A stretch of DNA of 64,000 nucleotides from Flavobacteriales bacterium (GCA_018401695.1 JAGYKD010000002.1:488636-552635), one strand, 5' to 3'; positions 16,617 to 22,323 are shown, counted from the stretch's first letter. Numbers and translations are program-made. Notes: generated from the sequence alone by a model not told the origin.

Positions 16617-16644
16617 TTGGATAAAGGAAAATATTTTACATTTG
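16617..16644 (+). promoter_or_regulatory. Promoter of tRNA-Asp
   Basis: TTG (16617-16619), a 17-bp spacer and TACATTTG (16637-16644) match the Bacteroidota consensus closely. The box ends 28 bases before the mature tRNA start. Confidence 0.7.
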
Positions 16645-16672: not shown

Positions 16673-16746
16673 GGTCCGGTAGTTCAGTTGGTTAGAATAC
16701 ATGCCTGTCACGCATGGGGTCGCGAGTTCGAGTCTCGTCCGGACCG
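16673..16746 (+). tRNA. tRNA-Asp (anticodon GTC)
   Basis: Complete cloverleaf. The acceptor stem is GGTCCGG/CCGGACC with discriminator G. The D-arm contains AGTTCAGTTGGTT, the anticodon loop CTGTCAC gives GTC, and the T-arm is CGAG-TTCGAGT-CTCG. CCA is not encoded. Its 3' end, from the T-loop TTCGAG onwards (16727), is repeated at the start of every unit of the array that follows. Confidence 0.95.
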
Positions 16747-16756
16747 CTGTCTTTAA

Positions 16757-16790
16757 ACCCTACTCAAGTTAAACTTGGGTAGGGTTTTTT
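16757..16790 (+). terminator. Intrinsic terminator of tRNA-Asp (first of five copies)
   Basis: The stem ACCCTAC-TCAAG / CTTGG-GTAGGGT encloses a TTAAA loop and is followed by a run of six Ts. Identical or one-base-variant copies lie at 17161-17194, 17565-17598, 17969-18002 and 18563-18596, one per array unit. Confidence 0.8.
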
Positions 16791-16801
16791 GTTTTTACGG
16801 T

Positions 16802-17104
16802 ATGGAGTATTGGGTGTATATTATTTATTCTGAAAGTTTAGTGGGCTTTTACAAAGGCCAAACGCACCATGTTCAACAAAGACTTCAAAGGCATAATTCG
16901 GGTCTTGAAAAGTCCACACAAAAAGGCAGGCCTTGGTTGTTGATTTGGAGCACCAAAAAGAGTTCGAGAGCAGAAGCAATCGCGCTTGAATCTAAGCTTA
17001 AGCATCTAAGCCAAAAGCGTACTATTCGGTTCATTAAAAAGTATGAGGATGGGATCGCGGGTCCCGACGCATTGCGCCTTCTGGCGCAATGGTCGGGATA
17101 CTGA
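16802..17104 (+). CDS. Small GIY-YIG nuclease, array copy 1
   Basis: The 100-residue single-domain GIY-YIG protein has the motif pair Trp-Val-Tyr6-Ile and Tyr17-Lys-Gly19, Arg27 and His31 in RLQRHNSG, and the catalytic Glu63 in AIALESKLKHL, so the active site appears complete. This resembles the UPF0213-like small nucleases rather than UvrC. A frame continues upstream to a TTG inside the terminator hairpin (16775), but the ATG at 16802, right after the terminator T-run, is the sensible start. The last 13 codons (PDALRLLAQWSGY) are encoded by a 35-bp hairpin at 17063-17097. No promoter is seen, so read-through from tRNA-Asp is the obvious route of expression. Confidence 0.85.
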   Translation: MEYWVYIIYSESLVGFYKGQTHHVQQRLQRHNSGLEKSTQKGRPWLLIWSTKKSSRAEAIALESKLKHLSQKRTIRFIKKYEDGIAGPDALRLLAQWSGY

Positions 17105-17205
17105 CCAGCGGGTTTCCCGCTGCGTCAGTATTCGAGTCTCGTCCGGACCGCTGTCTTTAAACCCTACTCAAGTTAAACTTGGGTAGGGTTTTTTGTTTTT
17201 ACGGT

Positions 17206-17508
17206 ATGGAGTATTGGGTGTATATTATTTATTCTGAAAGTTTAGTGGGCTTTTACAAAGGCCAAACGCACCATGTTCAACAAAGACTTCAAAGGCATAA
17301 TTCGGGTCTTGAAAAGTCCACACAAAAAGGCAGGCCTTGGTTGTTGATTTGGAGCACCAAAAAGAGTTCGAGAGCAGAAGCAATCGCGCTTGAATCTAAG
17401 CTTAAGCATCTAAGCCAAAAGCGTACTATTCGGTTCATTAAAAAGTATGAGGATGGGATCGCGGGTCCCGACGCATTGCGCCTTCTGGCGCAATGGTCGG
17501 GATACTGA
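17206..17508 (+). CDS. Small GIY-YIG nuclease, array copy 2
   Basis: The protein is identical to copy 1, and the surrounding 404 bp also appear identical. A tRNA-Asp 3' fragment (17131-17149) and a terminator copy precede it. The intact active-site residues (Tyr6, Tyr17, Arg27, His31, Glu63) and the lack of any decay suggest very recent duplication or continuing homogenisation. Confidence 0.83.
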   Translation: MEYWVYIIYSESLVGFYKGQTHHVQQRLQRHNSGLEKSTQKGRPWLLIWSTKKSSRAEAIALESKLKHLSQKRTIRFIKKYEDGIAGPDALRLLAQWSGY

Positions 17509-17609
17509 CCAGCGGGTTTCCCGCTGCGTCAGTATTCGAGTCTCGTCCGGACCGCTGTCTTTAAACCCTACTCAAGTTAAACTTGGGTAGGGTTTTTTGT
17601 TTTTACGGT

Positions 17610-17912
17610 ATGGAGTATTGGGTGTATATTATTTATTCTGAAAGTTTAGTGGGCTTTTACAAAGGCCAAACGCACCATGTTCAACAAAGACTTCAAAGGC
17701 ATAATTCGGGTCTTGAAAAGTCCACACAAAAAGGCAGGCCTTGGTTGTTGATTTGGAGCACCAAAAAGAGTTCAAGAGCAGAAGCAATCGCGCTTGAATC
17801 TAAGCTTAAGCATCTAAGCCAAAAGCGTACTATTCGGTTCATTAAAAAGTATGAGGATGGGATCGCGGGTCCCGACGCATTGCGCCTTCTGGCGCAATGG
17901 TCGGGATACTGA
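17610..17912 (+). CDS. Small GIY-YIG nuclease, array copy 3
   Basis: The protein is identical to copies 1 and 2. One silent G-to-A change (17774, a Ser codon) distinguishes the DNA. It is flanked by tRNA fragments at 17535-17553 and 17939-17957. Confidence 0.83.
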   Translation: MEYWVYIIYSESLVGFYKGQTHHVQQRLQRHNSGLEKSTQKGRPWLLIWSTKKSSRAEAIALESKLKHLSQKRTIRFIKKYEDGIAGPDALRLLAQWSGY

Positions 17913-18013
17913 CCAGCGGGTTTCCCGCTGCGTCAGTATTCGAGTCTCGTCCGGACCGCTGTCTTTAAACCCTACTCAAGTTAAATTTGGGTAGGGTTTT
18001 TTGTTTTTACGGT

Positions 18014-18316
18014 ATGGAGTATTGGGTGTATATTATTTATTCTGAAAGTTTAGAGGGCTTTTACAAAGGCCAAACGCACCATGTTCAACAAAGACTTCAA
18101 AGGCATAATTCGGGTCTTGAAAAGTCCACACAAAAAGGTAGGCCTTGGTTGTTGATTTGGAGCGCCAAAAAGAGTTCGAGAGCAGAAGCAATCGCGCTTG
18201 AATCTAAGCTTAAGCATCTAAGCCAAAAGCGTACTATTCGGTTCATTAAAAAGTATGAGGATGGGATCGCGGGTCCCGACGCATTGCGCCTTCTGGCGCA
18301 ATGGTCGGGATACTGA
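18014..18316 (+). CDS. Small GIY-YIG nuclease, array copy 4
   Basis: It differs from copy 1 by Val14 to Glu and Thr51 to Ala, plus one silent change. A further change lies in its terminator copy (TTAAATTTGGG). Catalytic residues are unaffected. Its 3' hairpin region is followed by two additional 95-bp sub-repeats before the next tRNA fragment. Confidence 0.82.
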   Translation: MEYWVYIIYSESLEGFYKGQTHHVQQRLQRHNSGLEKSTQKGRPWLLIWSAKKSSRAEAIALESKLKHLSQKRTIRFIKKYEDGIAGPDALRLLAQWSGY

Positions 18317-18532
18317 CCAGCGGGTTTGGAGACAATTGACTATTTATCAAGGATTCAGATGCGTCAGTACCCGACGCATTGCGCCTTCTGGCGCAATGGT
18401 CGGGATACTGACCAGCGGGTTTGGAGACAATTGACTATTTATCAAGGATTCAGATGCGTCAGTACCCGACGCATTGCGCCTTTTGGCGCAATGGTCGGGA
18501 TACTGACCAGCGGGTTTCCCGCTGCGTCAGTA
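18276..18532 (+). repeat. 95-bp sub-repeat expansion at the 3' end of unit 4
   Basis: Copies start at 18276, 18371 and 18466, always at CCGACGCATTGCGCC, the left arm of hairpin 1. In the first two copies the right arm of hairpin 2 is replaced by about 30 bp (GGAGACAATTGACT...TTCAGAT) before GCGTCAGTA. The third copy returns to the normal hairpin 2. The joint is always TCAGTA followed either by a tRNA fragment or by CCCGAC. Confidence 0.85.
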
Positions 18533-18607
18533 TTCGAGTCTCGTCCGGACCGCTGTCTTTAAACCCTACTCAAGTTAAACTTGGGTAGGGTTTTTTGTTT
18601 TTACGGT

Positions 18608-18676
18608 ATGGAGTATTGGGTGTATATTCTTTATTCTGTAAACGCCACAATTGTAGCAACCTTGCTACAATTGTAG
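18608..18676 (+). pseudogene. Truncated fifth GIY-YIG copy
   Basis: The fifth unit keeps the tRNA fragment (18533-18551), the terminator and the first 10 codons (MEYWVYILYS). It then runs into unrelated sequence and stops at TAG (18674-18676). The break lies about 25 bp before the palindrome CTACAATTGTAG, which begins the next repeat. Confidence 0.8.
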
Positions 18677-18885: not shown

Positions 18886-21800
18886 TCAAGCCGCCAAGGC
18901 ATTGGCATTTATTTGCTCTACAATCCTAAGTAATCTATGCGCTTCGGCATCATCAAATACGCCCAAAAGGCCTTGATCGTTGATATCTGTAAAGGGTGGC
19001 TCAAACAACATGCTTGGTTCTATCATGCCGTTTTTCTCCAAAAACATAATAATATTGTCAATAAAGGTCATTTGATTGGCGCTAAGCTTACCTACTTGTA
19101 TGAATTCTGCAAATGCTTCTTTGGCTGCTTTTATATCCAGGCCTACAATGCTTCGGATAAATACTCCTATCGGTTGCTCCCCATAGACATCGACATAGTC
19201 TTGTTTTGTCCCTAGCTCTTCCACAAAAAGCATGCGTTCCAATGCCAATAAGTCCATTGAGTTTATTGGTTGATTGCTTCGGAGCTTTTGAATGGTTTCG
19301 TGGTGCTTATTCTTCCGGATATAAGCTTCAACTCTGTCTCGGTAGGGCCGCGCCGTCATGGCCACTTCGAGCAGGGAATGTTCTTTTATCCCTGCCTCAT
19401 CTATCTCATCTTCTAAATTAGTATATACTTCCGTTCTACTTTCTTTGTCAAGAAACTTCATCAGCTCCCTGAGGGCCAACCGGACTTCTTCCAACTGGCT
19501 TACATGGGTGTTTTTCCAAAAATCCTCTGTCTGAAGGGCATGTATTATTTGGATTTGGGCCGCCACCGCTGGAATGTTGGATTTTTTGGCTAAAGAATTA
19601 GCAATGGATCCAACTTTAAAAATGTATTTTGAAACTTCCCCTCCGGTGACCATCGCAAGCTTTAAGGTCAATAATAAAATATCAAAACGCCTCGATAATT
19701 CATGGTCATCTTTGTCGGGTAGGCTTAATCCTGCAAGGTGGGTTTTAATGTCTAAAACATCACTTTTGCTTAAATTTTCCCATCTACTTTTGTTGCTGTA
19801 TTCAATTACGTAGCGCAGCTTGACTTTTACCATAAAGCGCTCCGTGTCTAAATCCTTAACCAAGCCGCAAAGGGCATCGGCATACTGCTCGGCAAGTGCA
19901 CGTTCAATATCTGTTGCATGATCTGCATCTCGAATGGCGACCACTAGGTCTAACTTAAGCTCAAAAATGCGCCTTGTTAAGCTTTTAACTTTATGCCCCC
20001 CTACTCCTTCAGGGTTTTCTTGGAAGAACTCCAAGTTTCCACAAAGGTCAAAAATTAAAAAGTGTTCTTTGTCCAATTCGGGGCCGAATAAATCTGGACA
20101 CAACCGGGTGCCCCTGCCTATCATTTGCCAAAATTTGGTATAGGATTTAACGGCCTTAAAAAACACCAAATTCACCACCCTGGGAGCATCTACCCCGGTA
20201 TCCATCATATCCACGGATACGGCGATTTGTGGATCCATCTCTTCATGTTCATCGCAAAACCTCTCCAATAAATCTTGTGCCTTTGTCTCATGGTTGTCAA
20301 TAACGCGTAAAAAATCTCCTTTGTGTTCAGGAAACATGACGTTGAAGCGTTTTTCTATGAATAGGGCATGCTGGTGGTTCTTAGCGAAAATGATGGTCTT
20401 CCCTATTTTATCACCTCCCTGAACCTTGATGCCTTGCTCCATTAAATACTCAAGTGCTCTGTCAACCGTGCCGGTATTAAACAGCCAAGAATTGAGGGCT
20501 TCACTACCTATTTCGTCGGGTACCTCCCCGGTGCTGGGGTCCCCAAACTTTTCTTCATACTCTTGCTTTTCTCTTTCCGTAAGCTCGTGGTACTTTATGC
20601 CTTCTCTCGGAAATTTAATGGGAACGTTAAAAGCCTTGGGAGGTACTAAGTAATCGTCATTCACCGCTTGATCCAACTCATACGCAAAGCTTGGGTTGTC
20701 GTCTTCAATTTCAAATAATTCGTAGGTATTGCGGTCAATTTCTTTTTTGGGGGTAGCGGTGAGACCAATGAGCAAAGAATCGAAATACTCAAAAATGGCC
20801 CCATATTTCTGATACACCGAGCGGTGCGCCTCATCAATGATGATAAGGTCAAAATGTCCCGGACCATAAAAACGATGGTCTGCTGCTTTGACCGAATCGA
20901 TTTTATTCATGATGGTTGGATAGGTACTGAACACAATTCTGGTACCAACATCCCCCTTCTCTTTGGTTAGGTCTATGGAGGACAAATTTGGAAGGAACTC
21001 GCTAAAACGGCGTTTGGCTTGACTTACTAAGGCATTTCGGTCGGCAAGAAATAAGACCCGCTTTACCCAATAGCATTTGGTTAGCATATCTACAATGGAA
21101 ATGGCTACCCGAGTTTTTCCTGACCCTGTGGCCATTACCAATAAAGCTTTTCTTGCTCCTCCTGAAAGACGCCCCCTACTGTCTTGTCGGCAAAAGGTTT
21201 CGGCTACGCGCTTTACGGCTTCCAATTGATAATAGCGCCCGGCAATGTTTGAATTGACCCTAAAGGCTTTTAGGTCTAACCGGTCTTTGCGCCGATCCAC
21301 GGCCAATTGAAGCTCGTTTTTGGTGTAAAAACCGGAGACCTCTCTTTCCGGGTAGAATTGATCATCCCACAAATAGGTTTCAAAACCATTGGTGTAGAAG
21401 ATCAGAGGACGCTGACCGTACATTTGTTCCAGGCAGTCTGCATACAACTTGGCTTGCTGTTTTCCTTTGCGTGGATCTGCCATGGTCTTCTTGGCTTCAA
21501 CAACCGCCAATGGTTTACCGTCATCACCCCAAAGCACATAATCCACATAGCCAATACCAGAGGGGTTGGTAGAATCGGGCATACCTTTCACTTCATACTC
21601 CAGTTCATAGCCCTCACGGAGTTTATCCCAACCAGACTCTTTCAACGATTGGTCAATGTAGAGCTTTCTAGTAAGTGCTTCTGAGACAAGGAGAGGGATG
21701 TCTTTTTCTACCTTATGACCCTTGGCTCTTTCTTCTTTCCGGGTTTTAACCTGTTCTTCTTTGGCAATCAGTTGCGCCTTGAGGGTTTCAATTTCTTTAG

Positions 21801-22323
21801 CTTGTTCTTCCAGCTTCTCACGTTCCTGTCTGGCAGCTTCATTCTGCTTTTCCAGTTTCTTTTCAAGCTGCTTTAGTTCTACAAGTTTCAGGTCATCTTC
21901 TTTTCCTGTTGGAATAATGCTTTCATCAAATGGTCTTATCTGAGGCTCTTCTTCCGCATAGTAGATGGCAAGGAAACTCAAAAATCTATACAAATTCTTG
22001 TTGGCGACCAATGACTCTTCGGAACTAATAGACTTGCCATGTGCGGCATTGTTTCCAAACTTTCGGATAAGATGTATCTCCCTAAACATGGAAGGTTTGA
22101 GGATGTCTTTGAAGCACTGTTCATGCATCAGAGCTGACAACCGTGTGTCGTATGGCTCTTGTAGATCAGGGTCATTGGCATACAACCAAAGTACCGACTT
22201 TTCCAAGGCACTTCTACAAATAATGGCACAGGCCTTTGGGGAGATTAAGGTCAAAGACTCTGCCTCTTGGGCTTCCCTATAAATGTCAGGCCATGTACTT
22301 TGGAGGAACTGGAAGTTGCTCAT
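18886..22323 (-). CDS. hsdR: Type I restriction endonuclease subunit R
   Basis: Motor and nuclease subunit of a type I restriction-modification complex. The 1145 residues comprise a DUF4145 N-terminal domain (about 1-125) and a coiled coil (about 150-210, LEKKLEKQNEAARQEREKLEE). The HSDR_N PD-(D/E)XK nuclease follows (YVDYVLWGDDGKPLAVVEAKK). The SF2 helicase has Walker A ATGSGKTRVAIS, IIDEAHRS, GLTATP and QMIGRGTRL, and the rest is an EcoEI-like C-terminal domain. Its start overlaps the stop of a tiny upstream frame by ATGA. It is the last gene of a nine-kilobase minus-strand operon headed by hsdM. Confidence 0.93.
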   Translation of the reverse strand: MSNFQFLQSTWPDIYREAQEAESLTLISPKACAIICRSALEKSVLWLYANDPDLQEPYDTRLSALMHEQCFKDILKPSMFREIHLIRKFGNNAAHGKSISSEESLVANKNLYRFLSFLAIYYAEEEPQIRPFDESIIPTGKEDDLKLVELKQLEKKLEKQNEAARQEREKLEEQAKEIETLKAQLIAKEEQVKTRKEERAKGHKVEKDIPLLVSEALTRKLYIDQSLKESGWDKLREGYELEYEVKGMPDSTNPSGIGYVDYVLWGDDGKPLAVVEAKKTMADPRKGKQQAKLYADCLEQMYGQRPLIFYTNGFETYLWDDQFYPEREVSGFYTKNELQLAVDRRKDRLDLKAFRVNSNIAGRYYQLEAVKRVAETFCRQDSRGRLSGGARKALLVMATGSGKTRVAISIVDMLTKCYWVKRVLFLADRNALVSQAKRRFSEFLPNLSSIDLTKEKGDVGTRIVFSTYPTIMNKIDSVKAADHRFYGPGHFDLIIIDEAHRSVYQKYGAIFEYFDSLLIGLTATPKKEIDRNTYELFEIEDDNPSFAYELDQAVNDDYLVPPKAFNVPIKFPREGIKYHELTEREKQEYEEKFGDPSTGEVPDEIGSEALNSWLFNTGTVDRALEYLMEQGIKVQGGDKIGKTIIFAKNHQHALFIEKRFNVMFPEHKGDFLRVIDNHETKAQDLLERFCDEHEEMDPQIAVSVDMMDTGVDAPRVVNLVFFKAVKSYTKFWQMIGRGTRLCPDLFGPELDKEHFLIFDLCGNLEFFQENPEGVGGHKVKSLTRRIFELKLDLVVAIRDADHATDIERALAEQYADALCGLVKDLDTERFMVKVKLRYVIEYSNKSRWENLSKSDVLDIKTHLAGLSLPDKDDHELSRRFDILLLTLKLAMVTGGEVSKYIFKVGSIANSLAKKSNIPAVAAQIQIIHALQTEDFWKNTHVSQLEEVRLALRELMKFLDKESRTEVYTNLEDEIDEAGIKEHSLLEVAMTARPYRDRVEAYIRKNKHHETIQKLRSNQPINSMDLLALERMLFVEELGTKQDYVDVYGEQPIGVFIRSIVGLDIKAAKEAFAEFIQVGKLSANQMTFIDNIIMFLEKNGMIEPSMLFEPPFTDINDQGLLGVFDDAEAHRLLRIVEQINANALAA

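Follow-up and report, generated by a model that had tools for sequence, protein, structure and literature searches.

The window analysed here, a stretch of 64,000 nucleotides from a Flavobacteriales bacterium, carries a tRNA-Asp(GTC) gene that is the single copy in the genome according to a genome-wide pattern search, and 3' of it four full repeat units and a decayed fifth (Table 1). The direct repeats start at 16727, 17131, 17535 and 17939, with periods of 404, 404, 404 and 594 bp, and an earlier note on this DNA was right that the first three periods are exactly 404 bp. Upstream of the tRNA, TACATTTG and a TTG together form a putative tRNA-Asp promoter. As the note had also described, every unit opens at the T-loop of tRNA-Asp (TTCGAG) and carries the tRNA 3' end and a terminator (inverted repeat and T-run); the tRNA piece, given there as 19 nt, reads TTCGAGTCTCGTCCGGACCGC and is 21 nt long (tRNA positions 55-75). 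A GIY-YIG nuclease gene follows in four units rather than in all five as had been counted, the fifth being a remnant with about 38 gene bases. The expected integrity of the active site holds for all four gene copies, in which the family-conserved residues Y17, G19, R27, H31 and E63 are present.

Table 1. Features of the tRNA-Asp array, numbered from the first letter of the window.
Feature	Position	Strand	Basis
TACATTTG, Bacteroidota-type -7 promoter motif upstream of tRNA-Asp; TTG at 16617-16619	16637-16644	+	Sequence reading
Functional tRNA-Asp(GTC)	16673-16747	+	ARAGORN; Rfam 67 bits
Unit 1, 404 bp: tRNA 55-75, terminator, GIY-YIG gene, tRNA 42-54 copy, two hairpins	16727-17130	+	
Terminator-like inverted repeat and T-run, recurring in each unit	16755-16787	+	
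GIY-YIG gene copy 1, 100 aa	16802-17104	+	PF01541, E 6.5e-13
Left piece of split half-tRNA, ATGGGATCGCGGGT, copy of tRNA-Asp 42-54, overlapping gene 3' end	17049-17062	+	Sequence
Two adjacent hairpins (17062-17098 and 17098-17131), T-loop inserts	17062-17131	+	Fold z -7.4 vs shuffles
Unit 2, 404 bp, no difference from unit 1	17131-17534	+	
GIY-YIG gene copy 2	17206-17508	+	
Unit 3, 404 bp, one substitution	17535-17938	+	
GIY-YIG gene copy 3	17610-17912	+	
Unit 4, 594 bp; two extra 95-bp hairpin repeats at 18275-18369 and 18370-18464	17939-18532	+	
GIY-YIG gene copy 4; V14E and one T-to-A change	18014-18316	+	
Decayed fifth unit: tRNA 55-75, terminator, first ~38 gene bases	18533-18640	+	

The terminal hairpin of the earlier description is present as a hairpin tail, but it consists of two adjacent hairpins, and the copy of tRNA 42-54 that precedes them had been overlooked. 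This 14-mer, ATGGGATCGCGGGT, matches tRNA-Asp 42-54 at 12 of 14 bases; its counterpart in G002, a sister species, is ATGGGGTCGCGGGT and is identical to the tRNA-Asp of array-free relatives. The final codons of the GIY-YIG gene run through the tRNA 42-54 piece, and the next TTCGAG stands directly after the two-hairpin segment. Because ATGGGATCGCGGGT copies tRNA 42-54, the end of every full unit is a 3' half-tRNA with two hairpins in its T-loop. The fourth period is longer because the 95-bp hairpin repeat is present two extra times.

Unit 2 shows no substitution against unit 1, unit 3 shows one, and unit 4 has four within its first 330 bases together with the expanded hairpin region; divergence increases outward from tRNA-Asp, from the identical copies 1 and 2 to the remnant of copy 5. 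In G002, a second species of this genus, the array recurs with the same neighbours on either side and a longer remnant of the fifth unit; in four others, tRNA-Asp is plain and its surroundings differ. An assembly artefact is unlikely and was rejected, as the copies differ, the contig spans 596 kb and the same array occurs in G002. Genome searches found no second occurrence of the array's GIY-YIG protein in the window's genome, and its hairpin in the array only. An HsdR-type restriction gene adjoins the array in the window.

The array protein has a GIY-YIG domain with conserved catalytic residues (Pfam PF01541, E 6.5e-13). Proteins of this family are ~75-100 aa long and match the GIY-YIG domain only; no DNA-binding region was found beyond the nuclease domain. 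The extra DNA-binding domain of typical homing nucleases is thus missing, which counts against a homing-type reading. The best matches among solved structures are UPF0213 (1ywl, 1zg2), then SLX1, with I-TevI marginal. A bare nuclease domain with this likeness to UPF0213 and SLX1 could recognize extruded hairpins instead of sequence. Pairs of nuclease genes have dN values of 0.15-0.38 with dS mostly saturated, showing that the nuclease evolves under purifying selection. No match above cut-off was obtained in NCBIfam and none among the PADLOC models of anti-phage defence, and a search of phages and plasmids returned just distant YazA-like matches.

A profile of the nuclease matches 191 of 296 Bacteroidota genomes at E ≤ 1e-8. 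A single genome has as many as 19 copies, which often form tandems; the count is one of protein matches, and linkage to tRNA genes was assessed in defined sets of loci. In the first set, 98 homologous Bacteroidota loci picked on protein score and nothing else, a complete tRNA gene lies no more than 250 bp away at 73 loci. It is upstream of the nuclease at 55 of them and downstream at 18, and tRNA and nuclease are co-directional at all 73; by rough arithmetic (about 50 tRNA genes, 250-bp margins), chance adjacency would be ~1%. The tRNAs include Asp, Ala, Val, Asn, Ser, Pro, Phe, Met, Arg, Gly, Thr, Leu and Cys, so the variation in tRNA species that the note had proposed looking for in other Bacteroidota does exist, and half-tRNAs lie beside the gene in most genomes. 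In a second set of 80 loci with a Ser-type nuclease from named genomes, 67 lie within 300 bp of a tRNA, mostly tRNA-Ser, and all of these are co-directional. This set includes Balneolaceae, Fulvivirga, Roseivirga, Rhodohalobacter, Litoribacter ruber, Stygiobacter, Melioribacter, Calditrichaeota, Marinimicrobia, Patescibacteria and others, the matches outside Bacteroidota being mostly metagenome bins in which misbinned contigs are possible. None of 22 relatives on viral contigs and none of the UPF0213-like relatives in the 98-locus set is next to a tRNA.

Mapped onto the protein tree, tRNA species changes 31 times, compared with a mean of 54.8 and a minimum of 48 after shuffling; the tree is short, weakly supported and poorly resolved, and the signal lies well outside the shuffles. 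On this measure, nuclease lineages track tRNA species. Old vertical inheritance could explain part of the similarity of nucleases at the same tRNA across genomes.

The gene is usually accompanied by an incomplete copy of its cognate tRNA, with a palindrome interrupting one arm or loop or taking its place. The position of the split is fixed for each tRNA species and falls mostly in the D, anticodon or T arm: in the T-arm between 51 and 60 (or 50 and 59) for Asp (8 loci, with TCCCG..CGGGA hairpins of varying inner sequence), in the anticodon arm at about 27 to 45 for Ala, Pro and Val, in the D-arm between 22 and 23 for Arg, between 21 and 22, 36 and 37 or 70 and 71 for Ser, between 57 and 61 for Asn, and between 38 and 57 for Cys. 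Perfect terminal stems of at least 5 bp occur in 38 of 57 inserts; across 300 shuffled sets, the number never exceeds 6. Side-by-side double hairpins are found in many Ser inserts and in the Asp inserts of the window; the locus of the window protein's closest homologue (L005, 50% identical) has the same double hairpin, followed by TTCGAATC. The loci come in two mirror-image layouts, one with full tRNA, nuclease and split 3' half (A), the other with split 5' half, nuclease and full tRNA (B). Gene-less hairpin units are also stacked in arrays (L186, L211, L350, L015, L074, L011). A dispersed REP-like family was considered and rejected: TCCCGA..TCGGGA palindromes are modestly enriched genome-wide (13 matches versus 3 for the control in the window's genome, 32 versus 0 in G347), and the window hairpin is confined to the array.

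Sequences at the two ends of homologous loci bear on which half of the tRNA is native. At loci of type A, DISPLACEMENT of the native half is seen as unit sequence after the functional tRNA and the inner copies, with a different, presumably native, sequence at the outermost copy, both in multi-unit loci (L096, L101, L084) and in single-unit loci (L075, L072, L085, L123). At loci of type B, the outermost 5' fragment has a promoter-like sequence ahead of it, and the functional tRNA comes after the nuclease gene's end (L082, L092, L110, L089, L070, L006, L010). Other type A loci have alike sequences after both copies, so the displacement signature is not universal. Read most simply, these sequences show one half of the working tRNA coming from the element and the native half pushed outward; in type B, an essential tRNA would be transcribed through the element.

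Presence of the units varies among close relatives. At tRNA-Pro(tgg) in one genus of 17 genomes, G240 has four units, G029 has one nuclease copy in an array that a contig end truncates, and G363 has a remnant; 12 other genomes lack the array. The 250 bp upstream of tRNA-Pro are ~94% identical among G240, G029 and G363, whereas the nucleases are merely 42-53% identical, which points to separate acquisitions at the same site. Two related genomes (L210 and L211) differ by one nuclease unit at one tRNA-Asp locus. No clean empty-site pair fixing the base of insertion was found among the tRNA loci, the downstream flanks of G240 being unaligned with G353 and G349 right after the array.

The targets extend beyond tRNA genes. 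In three genomes of one genus, the nuclease ORF lies within the single-copy RNase P RNA gene (rnpB), where the insert replaces one stem-loop near the 5' end, probably P3, and an inverted repeat of roughly 18-24 bp encloses the ORF as its loop; at this place, a plain stem-loop is present in five further genomes of the genus. At L107, in an rmlB-like gene (named from its translation), a displaced 5' fragment is followed by the nuclease and then by a new 5' end that has diverged. At L127, a nuclease gene with terminal inverted repeats of 14 bp interrupts a tyrosine-recombinase-like gene, separating GHKNV from KTTMIYTHV; at L029 and L077, such repeats are 13 bp long. The T-loop, the site of cutting in the earlier note's proposal, is hence not supported as a universal target, as D arms, anticodon arms, RNase P RNA and protein genes are used as well. 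The rnpB, L107 and L127 cases make a DNA target likelier than an RNA target. A group I intron with a GIY-YIG ORF was rejected, since Rfam scans matched tRNA and RNase P RNA only and no group I intron core.

By its sequence, a unit brings together a tRNA end that serves as replacement, the GIY-YIG gene and a spare half-tRNA with a hairpin-interrupted target loop. On the simplest reading of the homologous loci, the functional tRNA is a native half joined to the half of the adjacent unit, and the other native half lies at the outer end together with the terminator or promoter that belongs to it. We consider that each unit in the window is probably a minimal mobile element of the homing-endonuclease type, specialized on tRNA-Asp. 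This reading draws on the tRNA linkage, the co-direction, the hairpin-split halves, their displacement, the presence/absence polymorphism, the target-tracking lineages, the rnpB insertion, the purifying selection and the outward divergence. The note's proposal of a small element that enters a tRNA loop, restores the tRNA and stacks in place is supported in outline by the displaced native halves, the polymorphism and the many tRNA species. Against a mobile element counts the persistence of an intact tRNA target beside an apparently functional nuclease. Recoding of the tRNA to resist cutting found no support: within the genus, carriers have a CGAG/CTCG T-stem and non-carriers CGGG/CCCG, and among 68 sampled tRNA-Asp loci the variant follows lineage, the carrier type occurring at 27 loci without and 8 with a nuclease (one locus counted twice).

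In such an element, the nuclease would cut the tRNA gene, or an arm extruded from it, at the target loop, and the element would enter by recombination via its two short tRNA segments. The tRNA would remain functional because the element provides the missing half, and the hairpins may protect the left-over site from cutting or re-use. New copies would join next to the functional tRNA, through further insertion or unequal recombination, and with tRNA-proximal addition the age of the copies would rise with distance from the tRNA. Expression of the gene is probably driven by the tRNA promoter, in the downstream form by read-through or within the tRNA precursor and in the mirror-image form from its position between promoter and tRNA; the element would thereby become part of an essential transcription unit.

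A bolder reading, which we offer tentatively as a possibility, is that these units belong to a new class of mobile elements whose insertion is guided by nucleic-acid structure and not by sequence. A small SLX1-like nuclease would cut the base or loop of an RNA-gene hairpin arm extruded in DNA, and the target arm would be swapped for the element's own palindrome. A cut on the 3' side would lead to the downstream form with a new 3' half, and one on the 5' side to the upstream form with a new 5' half. Structure-guided insertion would account for hairpin positions that are conserved more than sequence, for tRNA and RNase P RNA as targets, and for gene-less units stacking in arrays.

Several explanations without this kind of mobility have to be weighed against a homing-type element. 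The nuclease might break the tRNA region so that homologous recombination between short repeats amplifies the tRNA piece and the nuclease, with arrays arising as by-products or raising dosage. The perfect tandem register in the window and elsewhere fits this, and there is a precedent in SegB, a free-standing, tRNA-linked GIY-YIG homing endonuclease of T-even phages that is reported to drive tandem repeats of tRNA-Tyr and segB by recombination through microhomology (PMC13096335, citing Brok-Volchanskaya 2008). We nevertheless regard amplification as unlikely, given that each array has one working tRNA and its other copies are split by hairpins, so that dosage is not raised, and given presence and absence at the same tRNA with divergent nucleases and the occurrence of insertions in rnpB and in protein genes. 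A host tRNA-nuclease locus that has simply been duplicated in tandem, with neither mobility nor special function, would suit the nearly identical window units in perfect register; it is improbable in view of the link to more than ten tRNA species, which recurs in many genomes, is always co-directional and comes with hairpin-split halves, and of presence/absence within one genus.

It is also quite improbable that the nuclease acts on RNA, cleaving the loop of the cognate tRNA as a toxin or regulator while the hairpin-split half-tRNAs serve as resistant decoys or sponges. The interruptions do fall in tRNA loops and arms, where many tRNA nucleases act, and terminators follow the half-tRNAs in many loci. 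However, it is the native DNA halves that are displaced, the nuclease is also located inside RNase P RNA, relatives with terminal inverted repeats split a recombinase gene, and SLX1 and I-TevI, the characterized GIY-YIG enzymes closest by sequence, both cut DNA. The earlier note's alternative, a decoy array whose extra tRNA attachment sites divert integrating elements while the nuclease cuts the invader, draws on the fact that tRNA 3' ends are common integration sites and on the HsdR-type neighbour in the window, but we find it most improbable, because hairpins interrupt the spare sites, a native half is displaced, and rnpB and protein genes also serve as targets, none of which an integrase-site decoy predicts; 5' halves and the D and anticodon arms are used as well, and PADLOC gave no match.

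The closest parallels to a homing-type element of this kind are found outside bacterial chromosomes. In fungal mitochondria, mORFs make gene hybrids (Allomyces atp6; Glomus atp6, atp9, cox2 and nad3): an endonuclease gene, GIY-YIG in the case of atp9, sits in an essential gene with a replacement 3' end, and the native 3' end is displaced downstream (PMC3630166). The present elements likewise combine a nuclease ORF with a replacement host-gene end, including the protein gene at L107, and displace the native gene end past the ORF (L096, L101, L082, L092). They differ from mORFs in residing in bacterial chromosomes, in targeting tRNA and RNase P RNA, in replacing the 3' or the 5' half, in the palindromic hairpins that mark the left-over site, in forming tandem arrays and units without a gene, and in nucleases of only ~75-100 aa. 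As to a foreign origin of the replacement end, a trait of mORF hybrids, unit terminators differ from native ones and the 5' ends at L107 diverge; the tRNA halves are too short for placing their origin. With SegB, the elements share a GIY-YIG nuclease adjoining its inferred target, a tRNA gene, and tandem repeats. Spread into element-free alleles, which marks homing endonucleases of the SegB type, would be compatible with the presence/absence polymorphism. Unlike that phage system, they are chromosomal and carry a replacement half and a hairpin-split half-tRNA, neither of which is described in the accessible text of the SegB paper; their nuclease lineages are isotype-specific, and the same text gives no tRNA isotype preference for SegB. 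Hairpin-split half-tRNAs, RNase P RNA insertion and bacterial chromosomal arrays do not appear in the available parts of the mORF and SegB papers (PMC3630166, PMC13096335).

Other comparisons concern single traits. The UPF0213/YazA-like proteins and SLX1 have the same GIY-YIG domain; SLX1 is a larger structure-specific endonuclease working in a complex, and the UPF0213-like relatives in our sample are not tRNA-linked. As in REPIN/RAYT systems, small palindromes are tied to one nuclease gene and gene-less units are included; RAYTs, however, are HUH (Y1) enzymes and REPINs are dispersed between genes, whereas here the enzyme is GIY-YIG and the palindromes lie in RNA-gene arms and are not dispersed at high copy number. 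Genomic islands and prophages that integrate at tRNAs also restore the tRNA end and leave a partial tRNA at the far side. They differ from the units described here, in which ~300-400 bp hold a GIY-YIG gene only and no integrase, 5' halves and internal loops are used, and the left-over site is hairpinned. The note's author knew of no described system with this layout, in agreement with our search, in which no bacterial tRNA version of such an element, and no bacterial tRNA-GIY-YIG system, was found in the searchable literature, preprints and most subscription journals lying outside it. From their sequences, the elements look like undescribed miniature mobile elements related to the homing-endonuclease kind.

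If this is true, they would be among the smallest autonomous-looking mobile elements (about 300-400 bp), widespread in Bacteroidota and allied phyla, and would live by breaking and rebuilding essential RNA genes, as a natural analogue of cleave-and-rescue gene drives. They would also be a source of naturally target-specific mini-nucleases, and would account for half-tRNA arrays at which assemblies break and tRNA annotation becomes confused. The genes of the family are annotated merely as GIY-YIG family proteins.

A long HsdR-like ORF, by resemblance a type I restriction subunit, lies directly downstream of the nuclease array both in the window's genome (G000) and in the second species of its genus (G002). 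The GC-rich repeat GGCCGGGCGCGCCCTTACTGCAAG, of which the window holds three copies, is a portion of a longer element and is also present behind the array in G002 (L007).

Elsewhere in G000, an mnmE-like gene is followed immediately at its 3' end by three direct repeats of 79 bp that contain the hairpin TCCCGAGTGTAACCTCGGGA (L347). There is no tRNA gene near these repeats, which may represent gene-less units belonging to a related element. At L350, gene-less repeats of ~67 bp stand in a row upstream of tRNA-Asn, every one of them composed of a 5' piece of tRNA-Asn and the hairpin TCCCGATACATCGGGA.

Location of features
Feature	Sequence	Position	Strand
HsdR-like ORF	window	18886-22323	-
GC-rich repeat	window	18716, 28278, 30537	
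79-bp repeats (L347)	G000:C13	~447600	
~67-bp repeats (L350)	G186:C1	~329400	

In the genus whose RNase P RNA genes (rnpB) can hold the nuclease, the rnpB genes at L131, L132, L134, L136 and L137 carry an additional ~125-nt insertion, in an arm other than that occupied by the nuclease. At the position of this insertion in its relatives, the rnpB of L135 has the hairpin CTCGGCACATAACCTATGTGCCGAG, which shares GCACATAAC with the ends of the L135 nuclease element.

Within one genus, tRNA-Pro(tgg) occurs as two sequence types (L220-L225). These types are ~86% identical whereas their upstream flanks are ~94% identical, a pattern that would fit a replacement of tRNA segments.
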